Below, in pieces: positions 1-53,484 of a stretch of DNA of 64,000 nt (its first letter is position 1; every line of letters begins with the position of its first letter). The stretch spans positions 62,001-126,000 of the forward strand of contig JADGJC010000085.1 in assembly GCA_027596075.1 (NCBI GenBank), in the 5' to 3' direction. This DNA comes from Rhizophlyctis rosea (lineage: Eukaryota > Chytridiomycota > Chytridiomycetes > Rhizophlyctidales > Rhizophlyctidaceae). Under the pieces are notes generated by a model. The model was not told the origin of the DNA, searched no databases, and worked only from the letters and a program-made list of their open reading frames with translations. The position numbers and the translations under genes are program-made.

Positions 1-1310
1 TGCAAGGTTTTGAAGTTGTTCGGTCAGGAACCACTCTTCTCGTCGACCCAATTCCAGGGGAGCAATCCCTCCCATCACCACCAATCTCCACGATGCGGAT
101 TCATCGATAACGTGTACGTCTCTGGCGCCAGCCTCGTTCGATCCGAATGGGCCGACCATGCATGTCATTACGGAATAAGATTTTTAGAATTTTGTGTGCG
201 CTTGCTCTTCAGGGTTCAGTTTCTGTGACGTAAATTCGAAGCCACGTGGCGCAGCAGCCAACACCCGGATGATGTCAGCACATGCAAACAAGACGGGTTG
301 AAAGTTGACAGGTAGCGACCCGTAGGGCTCCCGAAATACCAAGATTCCAGTGCTGGTACCCATGTAAGAGATTGACAAACACCATGTGATGAAGTAGGGT
401 CGGGTTTGCACTGATTGACAATTCCAACAATCCCAACGACAATCTGTTGACTCCATACAAATCCGTTGAGGCCCTGCATCTACAATGCCGTCCATGTTTT
501 CAAAATACCCCAGCGCCCTTACCAAAAAAACCCTCAATCTCATGATCACTCATAATCAAAGACAATATATTGGCGTAATATTCGCAACACCCGCCCTGAG
601 CCCGGTGCAAATTTTACACATTCCCATACCTTCTCTACCATCCATCCATGCCATTCCCCAACTTCCCCACCCTCTATATCAAGCTCAACCCCAAAGATGA
701 CGTCTCCCCCTTCCACTCCTTCACCTACATCCTCCAATCAAACGAAGACCCCTCCGTAGCAGCTTTCGCAATTTGGAACAGACTCGCCGGATTAAACATC
801 TACCCAACCGGGACGTCCACACGACCCTTCCATCCCAAATCTCTGCTCCGCGAGGAACTTCCGAGCCGTACGTTACATCATGAACTTTGGTGGAACGAGA
901 GAATGACACTACAGCATTGCTTTATGGTGATGTTGTTCAAGTTTGCGGATTGGAGTGGGTTGATGCGGGTTGTGGATGGGATTCATAGATGTTGCGATGA
1001 GGCTAGGGGTGTGCAGTTCCTGGAGGTTGAACGCACGGGTATTGAGATACCCTTCACAGCTAGACATTCTGGTCGTCGCGGACTTCGGGTAGACAAAGTG
1101 GGGAGAGATAGAGTTGATTGCGGAGGTCGTCAGGCACACGTAGGAGATGGAGCGAGTGGAGACGGTGGAGCAGTGGGTTTGGAGGTGACCGCGAACCCCC
1201 TGCGTACCAAGATGAATGGGGGAGTCAATTCAGGGCTAGATCTGCTTCACGAGATACTTGAATTGAATCAAGTATGCGGATGGGTGGTGATTATCAGCAA
1301 GCCTTAGTCT
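1..1310. other. Stretch without a supported gene; one 219-codon open frame
   Basis: The longest open frame (648-1307, plus strand) would give about 219 residues but shows no recognisable domain. Its second half becomes Gly/Arg/Val-rich in a way typical of non-coding read-through. Short overlapping frames on both strands between 184 and 550 look random. The fragment FIDNVYVSGASLVRSEWADH near the left edge could be the end of a gene that begins outside the window, but I could not link it to a family. No gene is called here. Confidence 0.3.
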
Positions 1311-1415
1311 ATTGACTTACAGAGAGCGTCTACTGGGTCCAGGCAAGCGGTGCAGGTCCTGCGCCTGGACTTAACAACTCGACGCCACAAATTCAGGACA
1401 TTTTCCCATTATTGA

Positions 1416-1617
1416 TCTGTCAGGCCCAGAATCGTTCGGGCAGCCGTATGAGTCAATTCTGTGTACCGCCCGAAGCTGTTCTTCACGAGTGTGTTAGTCA
1501 TCAAAACTCAACAGTCGACGCCTCAACATCACGACAAATTTCTATTGTTGCTGTTTACGCCCAGAAGGGTCCGGCCCAGCAATATGAGTCAGTGTTGGGT
1601 GCCGCCCAGAGCTGATT
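1416..1617. repeat. Imperfect direct repeat, two copies about 139 bp apart
   Basis: Bases 1416-1480 and 1555-1617 share the pattern GCCCAG...ATGAGTCA...TG(T/G)G(T/G)(A/G)CCGCCC...AGCTG. The spacing between the shared ATGAGTCA blocks is about 139 bp. Neither copy lies in a convincing coding frame. They may be remnants of an old element or a short local duplication. Confidence 0.4.
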
Positions 1618-2045
1618 GTTTTTTGTTCAGCCTAGCTCCCTCGGTCGGTCAGGTGCGGGTACGTATAGCTTATCAGAGGAGTAAAACTTGACAGCCAAAC
1701 ACCCGAATGTAGGAAGCATTCCCCTCAATTTAGGCTGTTGCAATCCGAATGGCCAGTGATAGTGCCGATTACACTGATTATGAGTATCAACTCACCATGG
1801 CGAAACAACCGTATCAAGATGAACACTCCCAGTCCAAGGCATGCCTAATCTGATCCCGAACTGCCTCAAACAGAAATGGGCGACTATTTGTCTTACAAAC
1901 TCAGGAGGGGATATATTAGGCCCTGATAGCCAACATAGTACAACAAAAATCACATACACAATGAAACATTTCCCAACGGATATAACCTGGTATAATACAC
2001 ATGCCCACATCTTTCCCACCCACATCTTTCTTTTGCACCTCACAC

Positions 2046-3318
2046 CTAATCATCATGAACAGTCTGAGGCTGCGTCTCCACAACCCGCTGTTTCAATCCG
2101 CCCATACGACCCTTAGCTTGCGTCGAGAAGCGTTCCCAAGCGCCTCCAACGGAGCGGTTAGCGTTTTGGTACCCCTGAGCAGCGTAGGCTTGTGCGTGTC
2201 CGACTTGGCCGTCAATAGCGTCCTTGTTGTTGATGTAGAGGATGGGGGCTGTGAAGGCGATTATGATCACTGAAGGGGTTGAGGGAGAATAAGTGGGGTT
2301 GTCCGTGCATAAAACCTGGAATGAAGCATCATATAAGAGAGGAGAATAAGCTCAAAACTCACCAGCAGTCAACAGAGTCCACCCCGTCAACATTCCACTA
2401 AGCCAATACAAAGCCAAAGCACCCACAAGCGCCTCAGCACTGCGCCCGTTGTTGTCTACCGCAACGATGGACGCAAACCATCCAATGGCAACATTGATGA
2501 GGTCGGCGACGAACTCGCTTGCTTCACGGACGTGGTGGTGTTGGATGACGTTGCGGTTGGTGTTGTCAAGGTACCAGCTATAAGGTGCCAGATGTATAAG
2601 TGGATGGGTATGGGGTGTTTTGTCTGATGATAGCAGCCACTTACGTAGTAGGAGGCTTCTTGACGCCCTCGGTTGTGATCATGCGTCCGCCGTGGACCCA
2701 AAGGTTGACGAAGAGGAGGTTGGCCCCGATAGCGATGGCGGCGAGGAAGGAGAAGATGCGGAGGGGGGAGTAGTGGGAGAGGATGTAGATTGAGCCGAGA
2801 AGACCAGTTAAGGCTGCGCCGGAGTGGAGGGGGTTGTTCCAGAGGAGGATGTGGCGGACTGTTTGGGTACATTACAAAGATTGAGAAAGAGTTGGGTTGA
2901 AGACGTTCTGGTGGTGCTTTGAAACGTTACCTCTATCAACAGCAATCGCAGCCCTCTTATCCGCCTGCGTCCCCGTATACGCATACGACTCCCTCTTCCC
3001 CTTCCCAACAACAGGCGGCATAGCTCCCTCCCCAACCTCAGGCACGTTCGACACACCATGTCCAACCTTCGGCGCAGTGCTCACGCTACTCGAACTTGCA
3101 ATGCTCGGCGCATAGCTCTTAGTGCTCGGAGCATATGAAGACTGGTATGAGTTGTACGGACTGGGTTCCCCGGGCTCGGCGACAGGGTGAGCATTGAAGT
3201 GGTTCGCACCGGGTCCGGCGGCGGGAGCGACCTGCGCTACGTGGGGGTCAGTTGGGTGGGAGGGTTCGCTGACTGTGACGGGGATGGGGTCGTAGTTGGG
3301 TTTGGTTGCTACGGCCAT
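2046..3318 (-). CDS. RTN1: Reticulon-like ER membrane-shaping protein (4 exons)
   Basis: Exons at 3318-2931, 2858-2645, 2577-2363 and 2269-2046 join in frame to give 346 residues, with GTAACG, GTAAGT and GTGAGT donors. The first ~130 residues are a Pro/Ser-rich cytosolic tail beginning MAVATKPNYDP. The reticulon homology domain starts with LLWNNPLHSG, the family hallmark (LLWRDP-like). It has two long hydrophobic hairpins: one around SIYILSHYSPLRIFSFLAAI, the other around ALVGALALYWLSGMLTGWTL, continuing into the last exon. A soluble tail ending TVHDD follows. Reticulons insert as wedges into ER tubules and generate curvature. An upstream in-frame start at 3393 would add 25 residues, but MAVATK fits better because the upstream stretch looks like leader sequence. 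The domain call is strong; the exact start is less certain. Confidence 0.9.
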
Positions 3319-8692: not shown

Positions 8693-10974
8693 ATGGTTGT
8701 TTCGCGCATCCAACCGGCCTGCACATGGACAAAGGAACTCTCACCACCAACAACGACACATACCCGGCCACCGACAACCAAAAACTTCGAAACATAAATC
8801 CCGAAAGTAATACATACCCGTCGGTCGGTCCACCCTGTACAGAAACCCAAGAAAACAACAATCGCCTCGGAAAACCAAAATCCGGATATGAAACCATCAA
8901 TGAAGCGACATCACAAAAGATGGAAACCCTTGCACATACCCGTTAACCCTCCGCGATAACCCAATCCGCCCCCCTTCACCGAACCATACCATTTCTCCAC
9001 CGCCCACCCGCCCATACCTCCCCGCGCGCACACGCTTCCGCATTTTGTACAAAGTCATCTTTTTTTACCCCTCCATTCCTGTATTTCGTTTTATACCATG
9101 AGCGAGAAGCGATACCTCGCGGGAGATTCTCTACATTTAGGCGGGTGGTGCTTTTGTGTGTTTTTTTTTCATTCTGCATAGTTTTTGTATAGACTTTTTT
9201 TAGTGGTTCGGTGATGGGTTTAGCGCAGTTTTTTTCTTTCTTTTCTTATATCATTGTGCTTAGCCTTAGCTAGGGGGCGATAAAAAATCAAAAGAAAAAA
9301 ATCAATCAAAAAAACTTGTTGATTTGTGGGTTGGGAGGGTGGTTTTTTTTTTCCTTGTATATTAGTGTGGGGTTCATGGTGCTTGTCACTCTTTCTGATA
9401 CGATTGGGTTTGAAAATAGAAAAATTGCTTGATTGTTGTCTTCTTTCTCGGAATCGTTTTGTTTGATGTTGTTGTTGGTTGGGCTTGTCGGATGTGCTGC
9501 TAATGATAATCATGAAAAGCGATATGGACTCTCTTCAGGTTGAAGCTACACCTTGGGCCGGCATGCCACTCGGATGTCTCGCAAATTGGCATTAATTTTA
9601 CCAAATTTGGTTCCCTGAAGAGGGGTCATTTTGGGTGGCACTGTAAGTGTTCTCCTCCATTTCGCAATTACAATGCTCGCAGTAAAACCTCAACCCATCA
9701 ACCTATGAGGACACTACGCCCTACACTCACATTGAAGACCTGCTGCGGTCGTGAGTACAACTGGGTATCAAACTTAAACTCTTTTTCAAGGAACCTCAAG
9801 AATGTTCCTAACCCGATGAAAGTGGTGGACTTTGCCTGACATTGAACCCCATCTCTGTACAAGTCCATCTCAGGGTGATAATCGGTCAAAAAGAAAAGAG
9901 TACTCTTCTCAGGATCCCCGCTGAGGGTTTGGGGCTCATTGGCCTTGCCGTAAATATATGCATATCCCAGTTCCGGAATGTTAACCGGATGCCCTTTCGA
10001 TAGTCGGCACGAAGAATCGTGCGCATTGAAACGGAACTTCCCTATCTCTTAGGATCGACTAACCCATGTCCAACTGCTGTTCACATGGAACCTTTCTCCA
10101 CTTCAGTCTTCAAAGTTCTCATTTGAATATTTGCTACTACCACCAAGATCTGCACTAGAGGCCGTTGCACTCGGACTTGCGTCCAAAGCTTATCAACCGA
10201 CCCCCAGGCCCTTCCACCGGTTAGGGCCTGGAATTACCCTGATGGTCGAGTATGGGTAGCACCCTTGAGCTCCATCCGGTTTCAGGGCTGGTTTATTTGG
10301 CAGGGGAGTTGTTACAGACTCCTTAGCGGATTCTGATTTCCATGGCTGTCCGGCTGCCCAGCGGGACTGACACCTTTTGTGGTGTCTGACCAAGCGTGCA
10401 ATTTGGCGCCCTGACTTGAGGTTCGGTTCCTCCTGCATGAGCAGGTTTGCTTGTCGCTCATTTCACCTAGTATGAATCTTGAGAAGCGTCAGAATTGCTT
10501 CCACCTCGCACGGCCGTGAAGTCAGTGCGCTATGTAATTTTTTGATATTTTTCCAACCTCCTTCGGAAGGAATTGACTTCCGAAGACAGAGTAGAAGCCA
10601 TAGGACTTCGTGACTGTAGGTATGCTAGGAGCCCTCGATATAGTGAACAATTGCCAATGATTGGGACCTGAGTTGCTGCTGATGAGAGAACACAGTGCCC
10701 GAAGTTCAATCAAAGAAGTGGGTGTGGCCTGGATGGTGTGCAACATGCATCGCTCCAACATGCAACACCCAAAGTCCCCCCAGGCCATCGTAAAAAAATA
10801 GCCCATCTTCAAACTTTCCCACGCGTTCCATCCAACCAAAAAGTCATCATAAAGTGAAGCACATCACTATCCACTCCATAATGAAACGAACGACGTCTTA
10901 TATTGTGACATCACTCAGCTGTCAGCCAAACAAGGCCCGAATCCTACAGATACATTCCCTTTCGTTCAAAGCAC
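8693..10974. other. Intergenic region with T-rich low complexity
   Basis: Bases 9040-9510 carry several T runs of 7-10 and are a plausible 3' flank of the CBM21 gene. The remaining open frames (9540-9839 plus, 10193-10438 minus, 10522-10839 minus) are short and lack domains or linked exons. Nothing else is supported. Confidence 0.5.
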
Positions 10975-12150: not shown

Positions 12151-13785
12151 ACATGAATTGGACGATTGCAGCGGTCGAAGAGCTACGTATGGTGTGAGGA
12201 AAACGGAGAACAAAGTCAAGGTGTTCCGTCTGGTTGATATCACGACACTCAAAGTATTTGCTTCAGTATTGCATACCGTATCATCGTTCGCTATGTTTGA
12301 TTGAGAAATATACACACGATCACTGCATCGCATTATTCGTCGTTCACTGCATTGTATTATTCGTCGTCATTGACGGCACTGATGACATGCTGGGTAATGG
12401 TCGAGACGGACCTTGGCGTAGCCCTCAGTCATGGACATGGTTGAGGTTTTGAATGTATATATTTCGGCTGGACTGGTATATACAAAGTATGTACCATCAT
12501 AGCCAAGGAGTCGGACATTATATAAATTTTGTCCTATCCTTGTTGGCCAAACACGTGGAATGGTCCGACACAATTTATTACAAGGGGAAAGGGGACGCAA
12601 CAAATACAAGGGGAGGGGGGAAACGCACCGATTTACAGTGAGAAGAGGGGGAGGGAGGGTTAGTATTGGTTAGTAATGCCACGAAGGGAAAAACCTGTAA
12701 ATGCCACAAGGGAGTTTTCCTGGAAAGCAAACGGCGAAGTGAAATGCACAATGGAGTGGACAGAAGCGATAGTGGGGATGTTAAGCGTCATTGAGCCGTT
12801 GCCTCCCTCCAGCTGCAAAAACGCTAGGCCTCATACCACCAAAAAGGTGGATGTTCCTAAGTACACATAGTCACGCATTGCTGCGATACCGATACAAGTA
12901 TTGATACTCACCACAGGACCAGCTGTGATCGACTTCACGAGAGCGTCGAGGAGAATTCACTGGCGTTTGGCTTCGGCTTCTCTGCTCCATTTGTCACTGT
13001 CATACCTTAGGGCCCCAAGTCGCTTCCTCAATTCCACTGAAAACGTTGGACGGTATATGTATATGTATGTGTAGGTATGTAACGGTTTGTGTTACGAGTG
13101 GGTAGGGTGATAACTGTCAGCGCTGCTTGGGGCATTTATCCTGGCGGGTGAAAAGTCAGTGAGGTAAAGCCCATGCGCACAAGTGAACTTGACTTACCAT
13201 GAGTATCCAAAGAAACGTGCAGTCACCACAGCCCTCCATTCATATGCACGAACATGCCGCCGAACGCTGTCATATATGATCGATGTGAGCTTGATGAAGG
13301 TGCGGTGGATAGCTACCTCTGCAGAACATACCTTAAGACGTACTTGGCGGAAATTGCATTGCAATGAATTGTAAAGGACAAAGAGAAAATGCATGCAAGT
13401 GGGAGGGAAGGGAATATTTATGAGGGGTGATTGCCCAATCATGATTCATGAGTCGTGACTGACCGTCAATCTCGTTAGGTAATCAACGGGATGTTGACAC
13501 GCCACTCGCCACATTGGCATCGTCATCAGAGCTGGAGCTTTGAACTTTCACTTTGGACTGCACCACACGCGCCACATCCAAGCACCATCTGGACCTGGAC
13601 ATACACCAAACTCGAGTGTTCCTCCGTTCCCACGCTAGCTTGAAACCCTTCAGGATTCCTCATCGCACCACATTTGGCGCGAAATTGAGTCCGAACTTCG
13701 ATCGAGATCCTAACAATCTGGTCCGCGCTAGCATACACACATAAAAGCTCGGACTGGAGACCTATAACGTTACGTGGAAGTCGGA
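12151..13785. other. Intergenic region with a short tandem repeat
   Basis: No domain-bearing frame is visible. Two adjacent 24-bp copies (12321-12344 and 12345-12368, CACTGCAT(C/T)G(C/T)ATTATTCGTC...) form a small minisatellite. A TATG-rich stretch lies near 13050-13080. The remaining short frames overlap on both strands. Confidence 0.5.
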
Positions 13786-16700
13786 ATGGCGTCGAAAGCG
13801 GGGGAGGTTGGTGATGAAGGTGGTGGTGGCAGTTTGTCGATAGCGGGGGAGGGTGGTGACGACGGTGGTGGTAGCAGTAAGGTAACGCCCGTCGCCAGTC
13901 AACTGATCACCGCAAGCAATCTGACAAATTGTGGACGAGCAGTCACCAAATGTTGACAGCAACCCTGGGTGGTGGGACAACAGGGTAGATGTTGCTGGTT
14001 ACGTTTCGTCCGAACAGCGGGAGGTAATGGCTGTTTCACGTGCGAGTCTCTGTGTGAAGTTTTTGCCTATGGGCTGACGTTTATGCTCTTATGCTCCAGC
14101 ATCCTGGACATTGGTATGGCTTTGTTGAAGAACGCCATATCCAACTGGAGCAGATTCGCAGTTTGATAAGGCGAACTACGACCGCCTATGAGAAACAATT
14201 TGCGCACTCCAGATGCTTTTTCATTTTGGGAAAGCCTGCCAAGGTCATGGATACGTATAAGGAGTTTTCACCACATTTTCTCGGCTCAACCACCGGTTGG
14301 TGTCTTCCATCCTGATACGTTCTTTACAAACTCTAAAACCCCTTATGACGTAGCAAAACAACTGCAAGATCTGATAGACGCAGAGTCAAATACGGACGCG
14401 AATGGCGATGGTGAATCCGAAATGGCGGTTGGAATGTTGGAAATACTAGATCCGAAGGTGTGTAAGCATGCGACTCTGAGAAGATGATTGCAGTCCGAAA
14501 TCACGGTGGGGATGTTACCATCAATTGATGGGTTTCGAGTTGAGAGAGCATGCGGAATTACCCGTCGGACGAGGCGCATAGCCGTGAACTGGGACACGCT
14601 GTTCAGAACAAGCCGAACGACTGTCATTGAAGTTCCAATCCGTGTGCTTTCAATCACTGGGCATATGCAAAGCAACATGAAAGATAACAGTCAACTTACG
14701 CTTTCGTTTTCCAACCGTCCAAAGCTGTTTACCGCACAAGGTACACCCTTCAACCTACGCCAAATCAAAGCCTCAAAAGGAACCGCAACACATACTGCTA
14801 TTTCGTATGATGATTCGGAAACGGAACGTAGCGTTATTGCGTTCACGATTCGGGGAAAAGCAGCAGACATAGAAGCTGCCAAAGTTGCCCTCCGCGAAAA
14901 GCTAACAACATGTGTAAGACTCTCTGCGCGTGTCCCTGTTTCGTTGTTTCAATAGTTCCAACACGCATGGCTGCAGGTCGCCCCCCAACTTCCGCGATCT
15001 GCATTGCCATATATTCGTCAAGTGAACGACAAGAAAATCAATGACGTATGCGACCAAACGAATACGAGCGTTCTCCGTTGATACGACCAGGATATGGATA
15101 TGGAGAGGGCGGTTGTGAGTAAAATCTTCGGATTGGAGGAGACATTTGATATTGTTATCAGTGGAACCGACGAGGGTATTGACGCTGCGCAGGAGCAGAT
15201 TGACGTTTTGGTTGCCGTGAGTGTTGAGAAGTCTCCTGGGTCAAAACTTCAAGCTCAAACATTTTGCCGATGATTTAGGAATCGCCGTACAGCTTTACCA
15301 TGACTATTCCGCAAGCATTTCACCCTTTCATCACTGGAGTTAACAAGGCGAGACTCAAGTATTATGAAGACAACCTGCATACAAGGGTGACGGTACCGCC
15401 CTTCCTGTTGAGCCGACACGATCAAATGACGGAGGAGATCAAGGTCGAAGGCAGAAGGAGCAATGTAGCCGACACAGCATCTCAAATTAATGCTTTGTTC
15501 GACCATCTGGTATGTCTTGAGATCTCGGCCTGCTCGTTGTCATTGCTTTCTTGTGTTGTTCGCCTGCTTGTTCACATATCTGCCAACCAGAAAATCACAA
15601 CCATAAGCATCACTCCATACCTACCCAAGCGCCTGCACCGGTTTCTTCTTCGTGCTGATGGAAGTGGCGTAGATAAGCTCATGTAAAAGTATCAGTGCGC
15701 ACTTGTTGTTCCACCGTTCTGGGAACCGAGTGATATGATCGAGGTTAGGGGTCATCCGGAGGATTATGAATGGAGCTGTTGAGTATTTGGCCAATGAGGT
15801 GAGCTGAGTTGGGCAGGAGTCTCTTCGAGATCCACACATGGCTCATGACACTGCCGTGCGTGGCTTTCAGAGTAGGATTATACCGCGAGATGAGATTGCT
15901 GCGTCGACTTGTGTCTGTTGGTCCAAGTTCGGGGAGATAATTGCGACATTGTTTTTGAAATCATTCAAAAAATGCCTGATATCATTATCACTAACCAGGA
16001 CGAGAGGGACATAATCGGATGTGGAAGTTGTGCAAAACTTTTCCATCCAATTTGCGCACTGTTCGACTCGGCTGAAGATCCGAAGATACCGGATAATTGG
16101 AAATGTTTGGACTGTCTCGGTATAGACCCTGAAAGTGTTGAAAAGTTCCCGCGCACTCGTAGAGTCTTGGGTCGGCTTTGGGCATCAGGAATGCCAGTTG
16201 GAAGGGTACAACAGCTGAGCGGAGAGTTGGGTAGGTGCTCCTGTACCTTGCTTTATGTAACGACAAGTTGATATTCATGACACCTTTATTCTTTCGAAAG
16301 GAATACCCGCTGACAAAGTCCAAGCATCTTTGAACTCGATGCGTTCGGCCAGATTCAAGTTCGATCCTAATACTGTGGGCTTTCCGCGCCGCATCTTGCG
16401 ACGGCCGGAGTCGCGAGCCTCATACAAACGGTGGATGGGTCCTAAGGTGTTGCCGTTCGCTGCGCGGCCGAAACCGTTTCATAGGCAACAACGGCGGTGA
16501 GCAGGGGAAATGATCTGATACCTTTCGGTTTTGGTTCCTCATTTTTCGAATTTTTTCCTTTTAGTATCCCTACTACCCTCGAAGGCTTTAGCTATCGCTT
16601 GAACGATGGCGGCGAATTGGTTTCTCTGATTGATGGTGAGTGGGAGTTGGTGCATTACAAAGACTGCATGGGCTGGATGGGGACGTCTCGCGGTGGTGGA

Positions 16701-19700
16701 GTTGGGAAGGAAGTGGGGAGATGGTCGAAACATCCGATCGACATCTAGCATTCAGCTACTAATGGTCATCCATCCCGTCTCTCCGTCACTCATGATAGGC
16801 GCCAAACTTTGCTACGAGACACTCGTTGCAGTTCTCAACGACTCGAATTTTAATGAGCGATATAATGCTGCTTTCAGATGTATGTTTACGATTGATTCAT
16901 TCTTTCCTATGGCGACTTCTGAGTCATGTCTCGAACCAGCAACTCCTCTCGGAAGTCATCGAAAACGAACTCCTAACCACGTTCAAAATGGTGAAACAAA
17001 CGATACCTGCCGTCGACGGCCACTCCGCTGAATCATTCTTCATGAGGTTTGAGTTTACCTGCAGCGGATATGAACGGATTCATGGGCTCTGACAATTTCG
17101 AATAGTCCCGACGCGTTCGATTATCCGAGTGAGGCGCACCCGTTGTTATTGATCCTTACTGCGTGCCCGAGCGCGTAAGTCCAAACAACGGCCGGGCGAA
17201 TCTCGTTGATCCAACACTCCCGCTCACAATTACCTCGTTTCAGAGTCGGGAGGTGGTGTGAGAGTCTCGTCCCCGGCGCCGTACTTGGCTACGTCAGAGC
17301 GGCGTTGAACGCGGAGTATCGAGTCGTGGTCTTGAGTTCAACAATGGGTTTGCATGACAATCCGGATATGGATGATGAAGATGCGCAAGTCAGACCAAGA
17401 GATAACCTTGGATATTTCTGGGAGGCCTTTATTGAGTGAGTAATTCGTCGCGTGAATGATGGGCTTTCGGTTTTGTGGTCTTGATGAAAATATTGATTGT
17501 TGTTGTTGTATTTAGGCAGAAAAACCTCCGAAATCTCTTCATTGTTGCGCACAGCACCGCGGCGGGATGTAGCTGGGCTTATTGGACGTAAATGTGAGTA
17601 TGGCGACTTTGGTACAGTGATTCTTTTGCTGGTCGGGGTGTAGAGCACGCAATTTAGTATTGTTTCTCGCAAATCCTAGTCCGGTCAGTTCGCCGCCGGG
17701 TTCAATCCATCGCTCTGCTGAGTTTTGCGGATGACATGGGCTTCGAGAAGGAGAGTGTTGAAGGGCGGTGGATCTATAGGATGCGTTACTCTTACATTGA
17801 ATCCGGAGTTTTGGCGCCGTGCTGCTCCATCAGATACCAATGCTTTTGCTTGGTTGCTTACAGAATGTATGCAATTGGGTTGCCAGTAAGAGAGAAGTGG
17901 GTGATGAGTTGGGTGAACGAGGGGGTTGTTGGGAGAGGAGTGGTGGTAAGAGTTCGTTCGAGCGTTGTTCCTTTTGGGATCATTCGCCTTGACTTATCAC
18001 GGAACGTAGGGCACCCCACCGCAGACTACATCCCGAAAATCGCATGCGATTCCGTCTTTGCCTATTTTGCCCACGCCATCATCGAAGTAACTCCTAAAGA
18101 GTTGCGCGAGAATGACTGGTGGATCGAAGAGCGCGACGGGGTCACAGGCTTTCAACTCATAGAGAAATTGCATGGCCCGTGAGTATCATGCATTGCAGAA
18201 GAGATTTTGCACGTCACTGTCCTCAACACTTCCTCAGCTCAAGTGTCGGCCACCCGCCAACCCTCGTCTATACAGTGTCAGCAACCGACGCGCAACCAGG
18301 AGATCTGATGGTCATTAAACTCACTCCGAAACGCCGCACGAAAGGGGAAGGAATCAAGAAGTATAATGAGAGAGTACGTAGTGACTTTTCATTTCGGTTT
18401 GCGATATTTTCCGTGCCTAATTATCCATGCAGATGGAGCAATTGGATCAGGAGTTTGGAGCTTATACAGATCCGCTGTTGAAGCAGGATAAGTTGATATG
18501 TTCGGTCTACATGGGGGTACTCAACGACGGCGTCCGCAACGGTTACTATGGAATCTGTCTCCCTTATTCCAATTGCGGAGATCTGATGCAACTACTGGGC
18601 GATAACTTCAATGCCAACGACGACCTAGCACGGAACCTCTTCCGTCAAATCGCAGAAGGCATCGCACATCTCCCTTCAAAAAGTTTCATACATGCGGACG
18701 TCAAGCCGAATAACGTCTTCGTGAATGCGGAAGAGGTCGATGGCCAAGTCTACTATGATGTTGCAGTGGGGGATTTTGGATCAATCCTCAAGGTGGAAGC
18801 GGATGGGTCTTATGAGGGCAGAGTGTGTGGCACGCCGGGTTTCAAGGCACCGGAGATCACGAGATGGATCGATACGAAACCTAGTTATCCGGTGGATGTC
18901 TTCTCCTGCGGACTCGTTCTCGTTGATATTTTGTCCGGAGTGGCGGCGTTTGGGAACACGAGGAAGGACCCGCAGACACAGGCAGCTTATTACAGATGGT
19001 TGCGGTCTGAGGAGCAGGCTCATCCGGCCGGTGAGGGGTTTGCCGCACTGAAAGGCTGTGCAGGTCACGCGCTTGACCTTGTAAGCCGAATGTTGGAACC
19101 TGAACCAGACGCACGCATCACTATGAAGCAGGTGCTTGAGCAACCTTGGGTATGTAATATGATTGAATTTTCGTGCACACAATCGGTCAATGGAGATTAA
19201 TGGATCATTTGTTGTAGCTTACAGGATCAGACATCGGTGGTGGCAACAACAACGGTGATGACGATGGTGATGACAACGACGGATCAGATGGCCCCAGTGG
19301 TATGGGCGGTGCTGGTCATGGAGGGCACGCTTTTGATCCACATCGTGGAAGCGGAAGTGGCGGAGGGAACGGCGGTGGAGGGGGCGGCGGCGGCAGCGGG
19401 GAAGTGGGTGGTACTTCTATAGGTGATGGCATGGTAGGGAGCACGGAAAGCATCAACTCCATGGCTGCGAATCTTACCGCTCAAGTGCACGACATTGCCA
19501 GTGTCGGTACGGCGATTGCGCGGGGAGATTTGAGTCGAACGATCACGGTCGATGCGGTCGATGTGCAGGGCGAGATGTTACAATTGAAAGGGACGGTCAA
19601 TTCGCTCATGATCCAGTTGTGGACGTTCGCTGGGGAATTTACGGCTGCGAACCTGACGGCTCAAGTGCGGGATATCGCTGGTGTGACGAAAGCTGTGGCG

Positions 19701-20588
19701 AGGGGAGAGTTGGAACGGAAGATTGTTATTGGGGGTGGTGGGGAGATTTTGGAGTTGAAGGATATGGTTAATCGGATGGCGGATCCGTTGAGGACTTTTG
19801 CGGCTGAGGTTACGCGTGTTGCACGGGAAGTCGGTACGGAGGGGAAGTTCGGAGTGCAAGCACAGGTTGATGATGTTTCTCGGACGTGAAGGACAATCAT
19901 TACGGATGTCAATACCACAGCTGCCAATCTTACGAGTCCAGTGAGGGGCTTCGCGGACATCTCTGCCGCGGTGACGGATGGGGATTTCAAGCGGTTCATT
20001 GACACCATTGCGCATTTGCCTCCATACATCGACCCCACGCGCGCCGTCCATATGTTCCAAAAGACCATCAACCTCCCGCAATTCCAACTCAACATCGCCT
20101 GTCAAAAAGCCCAAACACAAACCACCACCACCGTCTACAACGACCTCCTCATCGAAGAAGAAGACTACAAATCCCTCCGCGACTCGATCGACCACTTCAA
20201 CAACTTTGACAACCTCGCCCTCGCGCAGTGCCGAGAGAAACGGGGTGTTGCGAAGATCGTTGGGGAGAGTGGGGACCCGGAATTGGTGGAGGAGCTGTTG
20301 CAGTTCTTCATTGATAACGGGAAGAAAGAGGACGTTGCGGCGTGTTTGTACCAGTGTTATTATTTGTTGAACCCGGATGTTGTTACGGAGATTGCGTGGA
20401 GGAATGGGTTGAGAGATATTGCGAGGCGGTGTGATATGGAGGTTGTTGGGGATTTGTTGGAGAAGCTTTGGGCGTTGCAGAGGGTTAGGGCGGGGAGGAG
20501 TGATGAGGAGGAGGAGGAGAAGGAGCAAGGTATGTGTTCAAAGCTTGGTTTTGTTTCTGTGCCCGTCTTTCCAGGGGATCGGGATTGA
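13786..20588 (+). CDS. Large chimeric gene: KH-like repeats, PHD, Arb2-like, protein kinase, HAMP repeats, clathrin tail
   Basis: This is a multi-exon gene whose pieces are supported by homology to the second large gene (45561-52337) and by splice sites. The order is: candidate start MASKAGEVG at 13786 (exact exon 1 end not fixed); a WW-containing exon 13960-14023; a conserved exon from 14099 with HWYGF and [15 protein letters not shown]-like modules to about 15800; a PHD finger split by an intron (15890-16150); a conserved block ending [11 protein letters not shown] near 17000; an Arb2-like domain (17100-17590); then a kinase C-lobe exon 18433-19149. The donor at 19150 (GTATGT) joins in frame to 19218, which opens a Gly/Asp-rich linker and HAMP repeats followed by a clathrin heavy-chain fragment. 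The frame 19218-20588 has one stop (TGA at 19887), removable by a candidate intron 19834-19920. Domain content is well supported; the complete exon chain is not resolved and expression is unknown. Confidence 0.6.
14488..15800 (+). other. KH-like RNA-binding repeats of the large plus-strand gene
   Basis: At least three KH-like units are visible. Unit 1 ends [18 protein letters not shown] (about 14840-14900), the typical strand-loop-helix end of a KH fold. Unit 2 ends [20 protein letters not shown] (about 15145-15205). Unit 3 runs from [11 protein letters not shown] to TRVTVPP and [17 protein letters not shown] (about 15300-15500), close to the KH pattern of vigilin and Bicaudal-C-like proteins. 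A fourth, weaker unit ([14 protein letters not shown] to MIEVRG) lies near 15620-15760. The GxxG loop is degenerate in most units, so RNA binding is inferred rather than shown. The second large gene keeps fewer of these units. Confidence 0.6.
15890..16500 (+). other. PHD-type zinc finger with CxC first pair, plus conserved flank
   Basis: The first ligand pair is CVC (about 15911) and the rest follows downstream after an apparent intron ending near 15999: CGSC, HPIC, then WKCLDC. The eight ligands fit C4HC3, except that the first pair is CxC instead of CxxC. The inverted paralogue shows the same CxC (LCFC) and CSLC, HAAC, CYGC, so the spacing is inherited. After it, [19 protein letters not shown] and RASYKRWMG align with GLGQDTFKQCLLSIRAAHF and RAAYKGWFS in the paralogue. 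PHD fingers usually read histone H3 tails; histone binding here is inference. Confidence 0.6.
17100..17590 (+). other. Arb2-like (FAM172-type) domain of the large plus-strand gene
   Basis: Exon fragments include [44 protein letters not shown] and, after an intron ending near 17516, [15 protein letters not shown]. The order (helix with Y-R, a beta strand, a YxW helix, then IVAHS at a nucleophile-elbow-like turn) matches the Arb2/FAM172 alpha/beta-hydrolase-like fold as I remember it, and the matching pieces of the second large gene fit better (IRGSETPSDHVEYVWRE). Arb2 proteins are known from the fission-yeast Argonaute chaperone complex and from HDA1-type deacetylases. The assignment is moderate. 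Confidence 0.45.
18239..19149 (+). other. Protein kinase domain of the large plus-strand gene
   Basis: The N-lobe exon (about 18239-18373) carries MVIKLTPK with the ATP-anchoring Lys; the intron donor after KKYNER is GTACGT. The second exon (18433-19149, in frame, 239 codons) has LPYSNCGDL (hinge area), IHADVKPNN (catalytic loop at about 18688), [15 protein letters not shown] and [15 protein letters not shown], and ends [11 protein letters not shown]. The catalytic Asp, the Asn and DFG are intact. The HRD Arg is replaced by Ala (HAD), making this a non-RD kinase. No clear GxGxxG loop is visible. It is probably catalytically competent; the substrate is unknown. Confidence 0.85.
19218..19995 (+). 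other. Gly/Asp linker and HAMP repeats related to group III hybrid histidine kinases
   Basis: Starting with LTGSDIGGG and a polyglycine run, the frame reaches tandem HAMP-like units: [84 protein letters not shown]. These repeats are the hallmark of fungal group III histidine kinases (Nik1/Os-1). No histidine kinase, ATPase or receiver domain follows. A TGA at 19887 replaces the conserved Trp of the DxxxTW motif. A candidate intron 19834-19920 (GTACGG to CCACAG, phase 1) would remove it and keep frame. This looks like a captured fragment fused to the kinase gene. Confidence 0.75.
19992..20588 (+). pseudogene. Clathrin heavy-chain C-terminal fragment fused in frame after HAMP repeats
   Basis: The frame of the HAMP repeats continues without shift into clathrin heavy-chain repeat sequence: [81 protein letters not shown]. 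In clathrin these lie near the end of the proximal leg. About 40 residues normally found between the LAQ block and the ELLQ block are missing. The trimerisation tail is replaced by an acidic EEEEEKEQG end; a possible donor GTATGT sits at about 20530. It cannot act as clathrin on its own. It is called pseudogene because it is a partial copy, but it may be an expressed extension of the kinase gene. Confidence 0.7.
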
Positions 20589-30030: not shown

Positions 30031-31595
30031 CTAATCCCATTCATTTGCCGTCCCCAGAAACTTCTCCCAAAATTTCCCCTCCTCCATCTTCTCCTCACAA
30101 CTACCTTCCTCCCACCACACAAAGCGATCCACCCCCGGTCGTCCCGTCCGCTGACCCTGAGCATCCACCTCCCATTCCCGCACTTGCAATACCGTGTTAC
30201 CGCGCTTTGGGTCCAGCAACTTAGAGATGCGGAACTCGCGACGCATAGCATCAAACATCCCGAGACGGGCGCCCAAGACTCCGTACGCGGGCGGGCCTGG
30301 TTGCCCAATCGTGATGGGTGTGTTTACGTCTGTGTATGATAAGTGCCGCCAGCTAGTCAAAGCGATATTGCCAGTATTCAGCGGCCGGAAACCGATGTCG
30401 TGAAAAGGGAGAGGGAATGCGTAAAGGTGGGTGAGATCTGGAAGAGAGTAGACGTGCAGGTTGTACCACAATCTCTTGCTGCAGATGGCTTGTTTGACGA
30501 TGAGATTGAATCGCGTCATTATCAAGTCATGGCTGCCGAAATTGCCTGCCGTTGGTTTTCGTATGGCTGTTGTCGCTAGCACTTTCGAATCTGAAAGTCG
30601 ATAGAGCTTGATGGTCGACAAACGTGGTCGCCGAAGTGTTGATTGATCAGAGGGAACCCCCAAGGTCGCCGCCAGCGTTTCATTGAAAACGATGACGTTT
30701 TGGAAAGAGGATGATAGGATGGGCGATGGCAGCGAGTCACTACCGTTACGTTCACTGAAGTTGACGAGCTGTGGTCGCCACTGCTGAGGAGGGTGCTCAA
30801 TGTACAAGATATCCCCACATGTGGCGAGTTCGCCTTCGCGTTCCATAATCTCAAATGGTAAGCGAACGCCTCTTGTTGGCCGCACGACGGAAATGCTTTC
30901 GTCAGGAAATCTTTCACGCCATAATTTGTGAGGATCATGATGAGTTCCCTCATAGGCGGACAAGGCAGTGAACACGTGCTCTGGTCGAGTTCCAAAAACA
31001 TTCTTCGAGTCCGTAACCACGTCCATGTTCTCCCGCTTCACGTTGACCGGCACGCTTCTCATCACCGCATCGTAAGATTCCGGTCTCAAGATCCTGATTT
31101 CCGGCGTCCAAGGTCTCGACCAAGCCCACCACAAGCAGACGACATCCCGCCAATTTTCTTTTCCCCAAAGCACGGGCAAGCAACCAGAAGGAAACGCGGT
31201 GAGGAGCTTTGGTTTCCAGATCGCCGTGGTCTCGGTTCGGCTGATGTCACACCACTGACGGCAGACTTGTTCGCAGAGGAGGAGAGTTGGCACGGAGAAG
31301 GGGGCGAAGATTGTGATAAGGACGTCGAGGTCTCCTGCGTTTGTGTTCCCGTAGGGTCGGTCCCAGCTCTTCACTCTCCTCTCAACGTCATCATTCAGGA
31401 CAAACTTCCCAAACGGAGAAACGTCGGGAGGTTCAGAGCGTGCGCGACGGAGCTGTAATGATTCTTGAGCTTAAATCCAACAACCGTCAACTATAAAATG
31501 ACTTACGGGGTTGGGAGTAGCCTGTAGCACGGGCGGAGCTGGAACTTGTGATGGTCGAGGCAGTCGGCTTCGATCTTGAGCGGCCGCGCGGGAAA
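30031..31595 (-). CDS. F-box protein, founder of a small local family
   Basis: The main exon 31452-30031 (474 codons) opens LRRARSEPPDV and carries an F-box-like helix set, DLDVLITIFAPFSVPTLLLC followed by EQVCRQWCDI, at about residues 40-75. The body has no named domain. Conserved blocks include ATCGDILYIEH, VIVFNETLAATLG, TIKLYRLSDSKVLATT, MTRFNLIVKQ, LNTGNIAL and REWEVDAQGQRTGRPGVDRF; these recur in two decayed copies in the window. A preceding exon 31595-31507 (SRAAAQDRSRLPRPSQV...) splices on in phase 0 through GTAAGT. Further N-terminal sequence may lie in the P/Q-rich frame upstream. F-box proteins act as SCF ubiquitin ligase receptors. Confidence 0.7.
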
Positions 31596-33029: not shown

Positions 33030-33789
33030 TTACCATATCCATTCCACTAAACAAATCGAGCGACTCCCGGTCGTCCTAGTCCGCTCGCCCCACGCATCCA
33101 CCTCCCACTCCCACATTTGCGAAACCGTATTGTTCCCTACTTCCATCCGCCACTTCTCAAATACAATGAATTCCCCACGAATAAGATGCACCACCGCCGG
33201 GCGGGGCCCAAAAATATCTTGCTTAGCATACATATCAATTATGTCTGCTTGGCTTGGTGACGACCAGCCGCAATCGGCCACAGCGAGATTGCCTGTATTG
33301 AGCCGCAGGAATTCGATGTCGCCGAAAGGGAGCGGGGGAGGGACCTTGCAAAAGAGCATGAAATGTCGAAGAGAGTAGACGTGCAGATCATACGACAGAG
33401 AAAAAAAGACCTCTTTGTTTGATGATAATATGAAATCGTGTCATAACAAACGCTCCTTTTGTGAACTAACTACCTCCCCACAATCCGGTTTTTGTGGCCA
33501 CGACTTCCAAGTCTGGAAGTCGCTATGACTTGATAGTAAACATGTGATATATGGGAGCTGGATTGACCGGAGAATCCTCCAAAATAGCGGCGAGACTTTC
33601 GGTGAAGGCAATGGGGCTGCGGGAAACAACTGATAGGAGCGGCGAAGGCAACGCATCTCTCAGTAGCTCTGGTGCTGCTGCAGTTCTGAAATCCACGCGA
33701 TGTGGTAAGAGGGGCGGGTGACCCTTCTCTCCGATGTTCGAAGGAATTCCGGGAGAAGTTCGACAAGCGCGGCATGAAGGAGATGCCAA
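33030..33789 (-). pseudogene. Decayed F-box family member
   Basis: Pieces in several frames align in order with the intact gene at 30031: PIAFTESLAAILEDSP with VIVFNETLAATLGVPS; MTRFHIIIKQ with MTRFNLIVKQ; LPFGDIEFLRLNTGNLAV with LPFHDIGFRPLNTGNIAL; WEWEVDAWGERT with REWEVDAQGQRT. Frame changes and stops separate the blocks, and the GRPGVDRF motif is lost by a shift. The F-box end is not found. It is a disabled copy, and its protein is not reconstructed here. Confidence 0.75.
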
Positions 33790-42389: not shown

Positions 42390-43290
42390 GGATTTGAGAC
42401 TTCTTTGCGCCTGGTCGCAATGTCTCTAAGTACATATCTGGGCTCTGACATATAGATCCTCGTTGATCTGTCAGAGACCAAAGAAGGTTGTCTCAGCACA
42501 AGGAGCCCATGTTGCACCGCCGGACACCTTATCTTTTGCCTTAGAGCCGGCAGCTTTGACTTCAAGCGGCGCAATTTCCGACTCGCTTTTCTGCCTTCGA
42601 GTGGAGATGCATTGAGAGTTGGGTGTTAGACATTTTGGCGCCTGGCGCAATGTCTTGGTTGTCTCGGCATAAAGGAGCCCATGTTGCACCGCCGGACAAC
42701 TGTCAAGTTGCGCTATATCTTGGTCATCTATCAGCTTTGACTTCTGTGGGACATATAACCTCGGCTCGCTTTCTGCCTTCGGGCGGAGATGCCTTCATGA
42801 GTTGGGTTGTTGGACTTTTCGGCTTGGCAATGTGTTGGTTGTCTTGGACCTTAGTTGGACCGCCGGACAGCCGATACGTTGTGCTGCATCTAAGTCATTT
42901 GGTAGCTTTGACTTCTGAGGGATGAACAAACTCGGCTCGCTTCCTGCTTTCGGGTGGAGATGCACTATGAGTCGGGTTTTGAGACTTTTGCGGCGGCGTG
43001 ATGTGTTGGTTGTCTCGGCATATGGATCCTAGTTGGACCGCCGGACATCTATTACGTTATGCTGCTTCTGGGTCATTTGGCAGCTGTGGATAAACAAACT
43101 CGGCTCGCTTTCTGCTTTCGGGTGGAGATGCCTCTATGAGTCGGGTGTTGAGACTCTTTGCGCCTGCCGCAAAGTCTCTTAGTGGGCTTCAACGATGGAA
43201 CATAATCGGCTCGCTTTCTGCTTTCGGGTGGAGATGCCTTTATGAGTCGATTAATGAGATTTTGTGCGTCTGTCACAATGTCTATAGTGG
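42390..43290. repeat. Tandem repeat array, 171/180-bp units
   Basis: The motif GGTTGTCT begins at 42486, 42657, 42837 and 43008, giving spacings of 171, 180 and 171 bp. Each unit then has a conserved GACCGCCGGACA-type core (about 42516, 42690, 42859, 43037), CAGCTTTGACTTC, CTCGGCTCGCTTTCTGC and a GGGTGGAGATGC...ATGAGT block. A truncated fifth unit lies at about 43160-43290 and a partial one precedes 42486. All full spacings are multiples of three and the plus frame 42623-42925 stays open across two units, but the encoded repeat matches nothing known. It is satellite-like, or a relic of a repeat protein. Confidence 0.85.
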
Positions 43291-45560
43291 GCGAGGGAAT
43301 ATATTCAGTAGTGGGCGGAGGGAATCGTACAGTGTGGGCCGTGGGAAAATCCTCCTTCTGCAAGGGGGTCCGGTGGCGGTGCCGGTGGCACTAATTGTGA
43401 CGCCGGCACAGACATCCGGCACCGCCACAGTGAGGCGCTGCGACTTCCCGTTGGTGGCACAGTCACTCTGTAAGTCTGGTTCACATGATTCACAGCAGTT
43501 TCCCCCGCTCGTTTCGCACCCTTGCAGCCTGCTTTCCTTTGCACCTACCACTTCAACCGTCTATGATTTCAATTCTTTGGGGCATAACATACAATCCCAG
43601 CTCTTGCTGGTGTTTGAATGAATCGTGATCACTGGACGCCGTAAGCCCACCACTGCAAGTTCCACACCGCCTACCTCCCTCATTCCCTCCTACACAACGC
43701 AAGCCTCCACCTCACCCATGTCTTGAACGACCCGCCATGCAATTTCGTCGCCGCACTATCCTCAAATGCAATCAACGTCTGCTTTGCATTTGGTGAGTTA
43801 TCCCATCCTCACAATCCTTTTTCAACTTTGCACTTACGCAGCAATCGAGTCCCTAGTCTCCCACCCATGACATCCCGTCCTTCCCACCTTCGATAATAAC
43901 CCCTTCAACTTGCAACGTACCAATCCCATCCTTCCTGCACGTGTGAATATCGGCCACAATACTCCAAATGATTCCCCGTGGTCATGTGCTTGCCGAAATG
44001 TGCCAGTTCATATAAACTGGCACATTTCGGCCCGCACGTGATGATCATAACAGCAAACGCGAAGATCTTTCCTATCTTTACCGATTGCAAAACACGTCAA
44101 CAAACCGCCACCACCCTGACGATCACGATTGATGTCCCTTTCCATCCACAACTCCAATTCTCTATAAGCCAGGAAACTCCCCACCCAGGATGCAACTTTT
44201 AGATAGGCGACTCACAAATCCCCAGGATAGGTCCGCTGTTATCCTGGGATTTTGTCGTCCTATAGGCCGCATTAGTTGATCGTGTCAGATTTTGGGACTT
44301 TTTGAGCAGGCAGCCCAAAAACCGCCGTTTTTAGAGTTTTATAGGACCCTGACCTTGAGCTTAAGCCACACCAGCCTCACAAGCCCCCTACCTCCCCCAC
44401 ACCTCCCATCACACCTCCATCCTTCCGTCCAGCCAGCTCTGTCAACATCGCTCAAGCATCCTACCAGCCAACCGCTGTCCACCACAATTGAGTGACAAGA
44501 AGAATGGCACGTCGTCACCGCGTTTCTGAATATCGTGCTCTCCGCTGAACCACCAACTCCGTCACTCCTCCTCTGTTTGCTTTCTTCACCGTCCACCACC
44601 ACACGAAAATCCCACCCGCATAGGCGTTGAGCCCAATAGTTTCTCGCCACTCCTTCCCTACACCAACTTTTACACACATGCCAAAACCAACTCCCATTCC
44701 ACACGAGCCACAACGAGATTTAATGCTCCACGCATTCCATAACTCCATCCCACCACCACCACACCACCCGCATACTACCCTGTAACAGACGACAAACAGT
44801 GCTTTGTCCCCGCATGCCTAGCCACGCACCTTAACAGTGTGCCTCGTCGCTTCGCCTTCCTCATCCCCGTTTCTCATTTCTCTTGTTCTGGGTGCCAATA
44901 TTGTACCTATGAAAGAAGCATGCACCCGTTCCCTCCACCAACAACCTGCTTTCTCGCTCCTCTTGACCCACATATGGTCGGCCGGCGAAACAAACGCAAC
45001 TCCTCCACTTGCCGTATCTGGTGGTCTTAACCTAAGGTTTCGCGAACGCGGATGGCCACCTTCATCGATTAAGCGCGTTTCTCCCTCCCCGCCTTTGCTT
45101 CTGGCACGTCGCCATGACGGCGGCGTCGACTGGTGTGGAGGAGAGGTTGACTGTTGAGAGAGTAAGATGGGTTGAGAGGGTACGCGTGACCGGCGACTCC
45201 TCGGCCTACCCGCACGATGCACATACGATCAATCAGGACAGTCGCGCTGAGTAATTGTGGACTCTTGAGCGGACTTAATGAGTGGACTTTGGATATCGGT
45301 TGATTTGTATCGCTGACAATCAATAAAGAGTTTTTCTTCTCCCAATACCAATACCAGCATCATTGAAGGGATTGATGGTCAGATGAGCTTGCGCATGAGA
45401 CTTTGCAAGAGCCCAGACTTCGCGTGTCAGGCTGCATGATGATGCGTTTCCGAAAAATCAAGGAGTGTTATACGATCCATCCTTCTCTGCTCACACAGAT
45501 CTCGCAATACTCCTCATCTTGTGTTTTTGCTTCAAACAAATTTAGATACATATGTTTTAG
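43291..45560. other. Unassigned region containing a strong hairpin
   Basis: No domain-bearing frame is visible on either strand. The frames at 43136-43621 (plus), 44339-44713 (minus) and 44818-45222 (minus) overlap counterparts on the other strand. A 16-bp perfect stem lies at 43993-44030 and is listed separately. This region separates the repeat array from the second large kinase gene. Confidence 0.45.
43993..44030. repeat. Perfect inverted repeat (16-bp arms, 6-nt loop)
   Basis: CCGAAATGTGCCAGTT at 43993-44008 is followed by CATATA and then its exact reverse complement, AACTGGCACATTTCGG, at 44015-44030. The stem is symmetrical in DNA, so it can fold on either strand or act as a protein-binding palindrome. 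No T-run follows to suggest a terminator, and no miRNA-scale arm is present. Confidence 0.9.
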
Positions 45561-46610
45561 TCACTCTCTTTCCGCTGATGCTGGATCGTCCTTGGCAGGA
45601 GGGTTTCTGACCTGAAATGAGAACTTAATGAGCGGCAAGTTTTCACAGGACCCAACCTTTCATGTTACATACGTAGTCGTGTTCTAAGACTTCCGCCATC
45701 GTTATGCGCCTCATTGGGTCTCGTTCGAGCATACGGTTTATCAGATCGAAAGCGATTGCATCAGGCCCTGTCAAAGTGCCAACACTCGCCCCATCCGGAT
45801 GCCCACCGCCTGTCAACCACGTCCTGTAAGCTACTCTGTCATCCCGTTTCGCCGCGTCCGGACCGAAGTCATGTCTACCAGATAGCAAATAAACCAGAAG
45901 CACCCCACACGAAAATACGTCCGCTCCGTACCCAACCCAACCCCCCACAACCCCCGCTTCCGGCGCCATCCATCCCCTCGTTCCCTGAATTGGTCCCCTC
46001 ACTAACCCAACCTCATTCACAAACGCCACCGACCCCAAATCCCCAACTATGGCCCCATCGTTGTCATCAAGATAGATGTTCTCAGCTTTGATGTCGCAAT
46101 GGATCATCCCGAGTTCGTGCAGACTATGAACTCCCTTGACAACATCGACAAAAACCCTCCACGCAAGTTCCTCCATTGGGACAAACCGCTCCCCGCAAAA
46201 CTTCTTGAGATCCCCATTTGCGAAATATGGTAGAGTTAATGCTCTGAAACCATCTCCACATTCGTCATCCAATAACCCGGCGTAAACAGGCCTGATAACA
46301 AAGTCGCTCGTGTGTCGATCGCACGCATCAAACTCCGCCGTGAATTGTGTCAGCTGCATGGGCGGTTAGGCAATGAGAATGTTATGATCAAATATGATAT
46401 AAGGTGCATACCCGATGCGCGAGTTCCTCTTCCGACTCATCTATTCCCCGAAGCTTAGAGGTCAACTTCAGCACCAACTCCGCCTCCACCACCCTAACCT
46501 CCCCGCTATCCATATCCACGTCCTTTATGAACTCCACGGCACGAAATACAAATGTAGACAACGGCTTGCGGTCGTCCTCCCTGAGCAATGTCAAAATCAT
46601 GTTGCCCAAT
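45561..46610 (-). other. Protein kinase domain of the second large gene
   Basis: The N-lobe exon (about 46609-46413) contains AELVLKLTSK, with the presumed ATP-anchoring Lys, and ends EEELAHR. The main exon (46353-45673, 227 codons) has LPYFANGDL, IHCDIKAEN (catalytic loop), VGDLGS in place of DFG, GTRGWMAPE and DVFSCGVLLVYLLSG, and ends VLEHDY. The terminal exon is 45611-45561. The HRD Arg is Cys (non-RD) and the DFG Phe is Leu, which many active kinases tolerate. The introns after ELAHR, before LTQFTAEF and after EHDY coincide with those after KYNER, before MEQLDQEF and after EQPW in the plus-strand copy. Confidence 0.85.
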
Positions 46611-53474: not shown

Positions 53475-53484
53475 NNNNNNNNNN
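53475..53484. other. Assembly gap (10 N)
   Basis: Ten unknown bases are followed by seventeen C. True length and content are unknown. Confidence 1.

Follow-up and report, generated by a model that had tools for sequence, protein, structure and literature searches.

We analyzed a window of 64,000 nucleotides from the genome of the soil chytrid Rhizophlyctis rosea (contig JADGJC010000085.1, positions 62,001 to 126,000, own-genome label C619). The assembly comprises 44.1 Mb in 634 contigs, and other contigs of the same assembly are referred to here as C20, C41, C117, C394, C410, C472, C557, and C612. The window contains two inverted loci, each of which carries KH-like units, a PHD finger, an Arb2 domain, and a Ser/Thr kinase domain in this order on one strand. 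Copy 1 is located on the plus strand and begins at 13,786; copy 2 occupies positions 52,424 to 45,561 of the minus strand. A first-pass annotation of copy 1, made from the nucleotide sequence, had described these modules and an inverted copy with the same order. Profile matches and BLASTP bear out the former, and six collinear BLASTP pairs and a paired alignment (see below) bear out the latter. Pieces of unrelated host genes, which are found within both loci, had been overlooked. The features are as follows (window positions; values in exponential notation are E-values throughout).

Copy 1
13786–14457, plus strand: start codon, first exons (13786–13881, 13943–14023, 14100–14295, 14354–14457) and first KH-like unit, in an open frame
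14494–15509, plus strand: further KH units of the vigilin type, the best of them at 15279–15509
15591–15798, plus strand: remains of a sixth KH unit, interrupted in the sequence by an in-frame TAA and a change of frame
15871–16496, plus strand: PHD finger with the adjacent downstream block (exons 15871–15912, 15999–16230, 16301–16496), open
16565–18178, plus strand: Arb2 domain (beginning at 16565, then 16940–17046, 17106–17174, 17244–17435, a piece beginning at 17516, and 18010–18178)
18238–19149, plus strand: Ser/Thr kinase domain (exons 18238–18373 and 18433–19149, the last kinase exon)
19218–19889, plus strand: glycine-rich linker and HAMP repeats (HAMP, 2e-9), with an in-frame TGA at 19887–19889
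20029–20535, plus strand: piece of a clathrin gene past the stop codon, probably not translated (DNA match to C472)

Copy 2
50820–52424, minus strand: start codon, KH-like units and complete PHD finger (profile matches, ligands read by eye, open model)
50424–50757, minus strand: block following the PHD finger (exon 50757–50492) and joining intron (50491–50424)
49012–50423, minus strand: single open exon (471-codon frame, 1,412 bases) with a piece like C20 and C41, a GATA-factor gene fragment and the start of Arb2
about 49107–48030, minus strand: Arb2 domain (Pfam, 5.3e-32)
47304–48029, minus strand: exon with the end of Arb2 and a fragment like a TPR/Mlp gene (47426–47890, DNA match to C117)
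46637–47245, minus strand: weak OB-fold-like segment (REPA_OB_2, 2.6e-4, below the cut-off)
45561–46580, minus strand: kinase domain (Pkinase, 1e-26) and stop codon (TGA, 45563–45561)

By eye, five to six KH units were counted in copy 1 and about three in copy 2, followed by the other domains in both cases. One copy 1 unit passed the Pfam cut-off on joined exons (KH_1, 1e-7, 32.0 bits against a cut-off of 21.5); taken alone, the same unit fell just under it (3.9e-4). In a protein search, the N-terminal region of copy 1 resembled KH proteins, namely two named vigilins of the beetle Anoplophora (6e-20 and 3.5e-19), two unnamed proteins (5.6e-19 and 1.8e-6), and a hypothetical protein of Gonioctena (5.8e-16), and BLASTP of the KH region against one vigilin (P0003) gave 1e-14. 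A search of solved structures returned no match for the KH part, and AlphaFold modeled the best copy 1 unit alone with low confidence (predicted local distance difference test, pLDDT, 48). In copy 2, KH_Vigilin reached 3e-4 and PHD-type profiles 8e-5 to 2e-4, all under their Pfam cut-offs. The PHD finger of copy 1 was above the cut-off as a single frame (2.2e-6) and below it in the joined model (3.2e-4). The C4HC3 ligands claimed in the first-pass annotation are complete by eye in copy 2; in copy 1, one Cys is lost under the splice that keeps the frame.

With single open frames, Pfam missed Arb2 except in one copy 2 exon (1.5e-11), and joined exons were needed. On these, the Arb2 profile (PF22749) matched copy 2 with 5.3e-32 (111.6 bits against a cut-off of 26.8). 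The profile found no match on the joined exons of copy 1; the joined Arb2 pieces of this copy matched a 529-amino-acid Arb2 protein of R. rosea (P0007) in BLASTP (2e-36, 32% identity). A deacetylase domain was seen in neither copy, and the OB-like part of copy 2 had nothing significant among solved structures (best value, 0.17).

The Pkinase profile matched both copies (6.9e-33 in copy 1 and 1e-26 in copy 2). The best solved-sequence matches of the kinase were CASK, CaMKII, and similar CaMK-like kinases, and a phage collection contributed four records with 27–30% identity. Within the R. rosea genome, only the other copy matched over the whole domain, other kinases being weaker (search threshold, E-value 0.001). 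The catalytic motifs had been called intact, which is correct for the Lys (VIK), the catalytic Asp, the Asn, DFG, and APE, all present by eye. It does not hold for HRD, which is replaced by HAD in copy 1 and by HCD in copy 2, for DFG in copy 2, which is DLG, or for the glycine loop, none being visible by eye. With an altered HRD motif and no visible glycine loop, the predicted kinase may or may not have phosphotransferase activity.

The two inverted loci are collinear paralogs. Unguided frame-versus-frame BLASTP yielded six collinear pairs (2e-41 to 1e-4), all on the coding strands, which extend from the first KH unit as far as the kinase. The two genomic stretches were furthermore aligned codon by codon with a spliced alignment program that allows introns in either sequence and grants no bonus for shared introns. 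The real pair scored 641, compared to 135–218 in ten controls (six block-shuffled versions of copy 2, two other regions of the window, reversed copy 2, and reverse-complemented copy 2). Five introns fell on the same alignment columns in the real pair and 0–1 in the controls; since the program also placed 22–41 introns in the controls, free intron choice alone proves little. The shared introns include those at 17047 and 17175 of copy 1, within Arb2, and that at 46411 of copy 2, in the kinase. A sixth shared intron, recognized by eye, lies at the end of the kinase in each copy (19,150 and 45,672), and the first intron near the start is of phase 0 in both.

Amino acid identity between the copies was 32% for the first KH unit, 28% for the PHD finger, 31% for the block behind it, 35% for the first half of Arb2, and 38% for the kinase. 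In these five segments, the proportion of silent differences (pS) was at or near saturation (0.74–0.91), and that of replacement differences (pN) was 0.40–0.48. Thus, as far as the five segments are concerned, they diverged to a similar degree while their amino acids were kept, and they have been under constraint since the copies split. The content of the loci differs: extra modules are present in copy 2, and copy 1 has a HAMP tail and a larger number of KH units. Searching the R. rosea genome at an E-value of 0.001 revealed neither the KH part nor the PHD block in a third copy.

The similarity of the loci extends to a stretch about 1 kb upstream of both starts, where the 5′ flank of copy 1 (12438–12776, plus strand) matches 53685–53572 and 53438–53354 with 78% and 76% identity. 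A search of the genome that skipped very common words revealed no third copy of these segments. Given the near-saturated silent sites of the coding parts, the shared flank is a candidate regulatory element or small RNA. An adjacent stretch, 12769–13040, shows an 84% DNA match to C557:554–827.

Protein searches, one of them with the joined exons of copy 1, depended on shared words of five residues and were limited in length. Among 7,991, 7,991, and 1,376 scored candidates, they gave six, zero, and two matches, respectively, none with the full KH-PHD-Arb2-kinase set, though distant relatives may be missed by such a search. The six matches were the five KH proteins and P0001 (GenBank HDV00_012174, an R. 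rosea hypothetical protein), which represents the copy 1 locus itself and is 100% identical where aligned. The two matches were P0007 and a second R. rosea record, P0008 (HK097_007830), a protein of 1,180 amino acids with UBA-like and Arb2 domains; both are without KH, PHD, and kinase domains.

The central question is whether each locus is a single gene. For copy 2, a model of 23 exons runs from the ATG at 52,424 to the TGA at 45,561 over 1,786 codons with no internal stop. Two of its exons connect neighboring modules: exon 50,423–49,012 is uninterrupted between the PHD side and the first part of Arb2, and exon 48,029–47,304 links the last part of Arb2 to the module behind it. In copy 1, an intron of 68 bases (16,497–16,564) with the borders GTGAGC...TTTTAG lies between the PHD block and the Arb2 start. 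When the broken KH unit is left out, a 12-exon model of copy 1 from the ATG to 16,712 stays open for 654 codons; another open frame, of 507 codons, extends from the first kinase exon as far as the TGA at 19,887. One spliced open frame therefore holds on both sides of Arb2 in copy 1, but not through it. The sixth KH unit has no counterpart seen in copy 2 and can be skipped in frame (intron 15510–15870), leaving the model open. Gene finding based on codon usage gave too weak a signal and over-fragmented the exons. Because of the stop-free copy 2 model, the two exons joining neighboring modules, and the short gap between PHD block and Arb2 in copy 1, we favor, with a probability of roughly 60%, that each copy is one gene encoding a mosaic kinase of the architecture KH-PHD-Arb2-Ser/Thr kinase, which is predicted to hold a kinase on RNA-bearing chromatin. 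The single gene path drawn in the first-pass annotation is to this extent favored; it is not settled inside Arb2 of copy 1, and the GenBank model of that locus starts in the kinase.

This GenBank model, P0001, comprises 692 amino acids and joins kinase, HAMP, and clathrin parts, leaving out a stretch with the in-frame TGA; it is likely an annotation artefact. Its start inside the kinase would also suit two neighboring genes, one encoding KH and PHD and the other Arb2 and kinase, that were duplicated as a block and are adjacent rather than fused. A local duplication can retain the order of its genes without any fusion, and Arb2-kinase proteins of Phytophthora are described without KH and PHD domains (PMC3019232). 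Moreover, copy 2 would have a stop codon just behind the PHD block if its 68-base intron (50491–50424) were retained. On the other hand, the 68-base gap of copy 1 could hardly accommodate both a terminator and a promoter, the copy 2 exon adjoining the PHD block continues into Arb2 without a stop, and both junction introns have GT-AG borders. We therefore regard two separate genes as unlikely.

Parts of both loci match other R. rosea genes at the DNA level. Copy 1 does not end in the kinase, as had been assumed: the kinase ends at 19,149, and the region 19,442–20,535 matches a HAMP histidine-kinase gene and a clathrin gene. Positions 19,442–20,007 are 82% and 90% identical to the C394 gene, whose frame of 1,094 codons contains HAMP repeats, HisKA, HATPase, and receiver domains, a composition that we take to be that of fungal NIK1-type histidine kinases. 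The frame of copy 1 is open from the kinase into HAMP up to the TGA at 19,887, which is TGG in the C394 gene. Over the 81 codons before this TGA, copy 1 and C394 differ by 7 replacement and 15 silent differences (pN/pS 0.16). Behind it, 44.5 replacement and 11.5 silent differences were counted for the HAMP remainder together with the second clathrin piece (Fisher P 1.7e-4 on rounded counts), a contrast that compares two parent genes and omits the first clathrin piece; the HAMP remainder taken alone has 8 replacement and 6 silent differences. The difference between the two sides fits translation through HAMP to the TGA. Translation of copy 1 probably terminates at 19,887, giving the protein a HAMP tail, and the clathrin piece is located past that stop. 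This clathrin piece (20,029–20,535) is 85% identical in two pieces to C472, a frame of which matches Clathrin (3e-39). The ratio of replacement to silent substitution rates (dN/dS) is 0.70 for the first piece and 1.67 for the second.

In copy 2, the stretch 49481–50297 is 73% identical to C410 over 817 bases (dN/dS 0.27), and the C410 frame just upstream of the match contains a GATA finger (8e-7). An origin of this piece as a retrocopy is disfavored, a putative intron being still alignable. Positions 47426–47890 match C117 with 80% and 90% identity, and a third piece with 76%; the C117 frame just upstream matches TPR_MLP1_2 (1.6e-13). The end of exon 50757–50492 and the adjoining piece resemble loci on C41 and C20, and the neighboring frame on C20 encodes a bromodomain and a GATA finger. 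Since the relatives sit in fuller genes, copying would have proceeded from the host genes into the loci.

Such a patchwork might also result from contigs that were wrongly joined during assembly, uniting unrelated gene pieces. The assembly is a draft of 634 contigs, and a run of ten N lies about 1 kb upstream of copy 2 (53475–53484). We consider an artefact of this kind highly improbable: the same order occurs at two loci of 28–38% identity, the fragments are 73–90% and not 100% identical to their relatives, the N run is the only one of the window and lies outside both loci, and P0001, whose record places it on a contig of different length, spans kinase, HAMP, and clathrin.

Alternatively, the loci could be decaying arrays of gene fragments, of which at most the kinase part is expressed, so that the apparent fusion would reflect chance adjacency. 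At least five other gene loci are matched in the two copies, copy 1 carries lesions, its second clathrin piece is unconstrained, and no fused relative was found among the scored candidates. Decay is difficult to reconcile, however, with low pN at near-saturated pS in the first KH unit, the PHD finger, the block behind it, the first half of Arb2, and the kinase. The stop-free 1,786 codons of copy 2, the in-frame joining of the fragments, and the constraint on HAMP before the stop codon argue in the same direction. Decaying arrays thus appear slightly less probable to us than two adjacent genes.

Several points weigh against the view that each copy is one gene. The single-gene structure is a prediction from DNA models, and the stitched exon models, being partly guided by the paralog, are biased toward mutual similarity. 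The intron-rich control alignments, the mixed parentage of the contrast around the TGA, and the GenBank model, which starts inside the kinase without KH, PHD, and Arb2, belong here as well. A single KH unit is above the Pfam cut-off, several PHD and KH matches being below it, and the sixth KH unit of copy 1 contains an in-frame TAA and a frame change. By eye, the donor behind the first PHD ligand pair is GT in copy 2, whereas the same place in copy 1 reads GA. Within Arb2 of copy 1, the exon joins in 16,636–16,939 and 17,569–18,009 are not settled. A hydrolase-like Ser motif, AHSAGG in P0007, is kept as AHST in copy 1 and lost in copy 2 (AQGEGG).

The history of Arb2 adds to these objections. 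Copy 2 is 60% identical to P0007 and copy 1 37.5%. A tree of four Arb2 sequences accepts all three topologies and does not show the copies as sisters; the branch of copy 1 is the longest (1.43 compared to 0.49 for copy 2). These values may reflect a separate or later replacement (renewal) of Arb2 in copy 2, or fast evolution in copy 1. Another Arb2-like stretch, whose pieces are separated by stops, is located on C612 (about 1030–3134, minus strand) and adjoins an integrase frame (H2C2 and rve matches); it may be a third relative of Arb2, no longer intact, next to a mobile element.

If each locus is one gene, as we favor, a single transcript would span it. An ancestral composite gene would have been duplicated as a whole; afterward, pieces of HAMP and clathrin genes would have been added to the 3′ end of copy 1, and the interior of copy 2 would have received pieces of GATA, TPR/Mlp, and other origin. 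By analogy with the respective families, the KH part would bind RNA, PHD and Arb2 would bind histones and possibly dimerize, and the kinase might phosphorylate chromatin or RNA-processing proteins locally. The earlier proposal of one protein coupling RNA, chromatin, and phosphorylation is plausible in this sense, based on the domain names. Going further, and tentatively, the two copies could represent a protein family confined to a single lineage of chytrids, a kinase tethered to RNA and chromatin that continues to grow as fragments of other genes of its own genome enter its reading frame, with selection then holding the new parts, HAMP in one copy and the GATA and TPR/Mlp pieces in the other; we view this as possible rather than probable. 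All parts are known domains; the novelty lies in the complete architecture and in the apparent acquisition of pieces of host genes by the two copies. The loci would provide a natural example of a protein that is likely still being assembled from parts. Provided that both genes make protein, they are old paralogs with relatives of their parts nameable in the same genome, which would render the order, age, and selection of the gains measurable. If the architecture is true, three silencing-linked modules (vigilin-type KH, PHD, and Arb2) reside on one polypeptide with a kinase.

Other features of the window were recorded as well. Frames neighboring the loci presumably belong to ordinary genes, as judged by eye. 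A transposon or virus carrying either locus was considered and rejected, there being no bracketing repeat pair of at least 60 bases around the copies (16-base exact seed). Three related frames on the minus strand (30034–31470, 33033–33440, and 57930–58769) probably belong to one local gene family. Two imperfect repeats, one of 66 and one of 85 bases, occur three times each within 42474–43390. A scan for RNA families gave four matches in the window, all fragments of large-subunit rRNA outside the loci; partial copies lie on the minus strand at 9710–10572 (model positions 955–1888) and 58847–59295 (675–1124), the model length being 3401. A tRNA scan of the window found none.

Among known systems, the kinase domain is closest to CASK and CaMK-like kinases. 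Like these, the R. rosea domain has a full C-lobe with the catalytic Asp, the Asn, DFG or DLG, and APE; unlike these, it has the Arg of HRD replaced, a short N-lobe, and no visible glycine loop. The N-terminal part recalls vigilin, which is described as consisting entirely of about 14 KH units (PMC10011833); a title in its reference list states that the fission yeast vigilin Vgl1 is required for heterochromatin silencing. In common with vigilin, Scp160, Vgl1, and DDP1, the R. rosea loci encode several tandem KH units. In contrast to vigilin, these units are fewer and degenerate (one passes Pfam, as compared to 14), and PHD, Arb2, and kinase domains follow. To our knowledge, vigilins do not carry PHD, Arb2, or kinase domains.

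An arrangement of Arb2 ahead of a kinase has a precedent. Phytophthora infestans PITG_06776 is described as an AGC kinase with an N-terminal Arb2 domain, with orthologs in other oomycetes (PMC3019232), and shares with the R. rosea loci an Arb2 domain ahead of a eukaryotic protein kinase on one predicted protein. Compared by description only, the two differ in that the Phytophthora kinase is of the AGC type (PMC3019232), while that of R. rosea is nearest to CASK and CaMK-like kinases and has KH and PHD in front. The terms KH and PHD do not occur in that report. Literature searches found no paper on the full KH-PHD-Arb2-kinase combination, the Arb2-kinase join alone being described there. The first-pass statement that no described protein has this architecture thus stands for the full set, as far as searched, and has to be narrowed for its Arb2-kinase part.

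That statement's companion, a link of Arb2 to Argonaute, has a counterpart in FAM172A, an Arb2-domain protein that binds AGO2 and promotes its nuclear import (PMC10205598). The link is weaker than stated, as Arb2 also occurs in Hda1, where it dimerizes and binds histones (PMC5036196). Unlike the Arb2 domains of Arb2, FAM172A, and Hda1 (PF22749), that of the R. rosea loci is joined to KH, PHD, and kinase domains.

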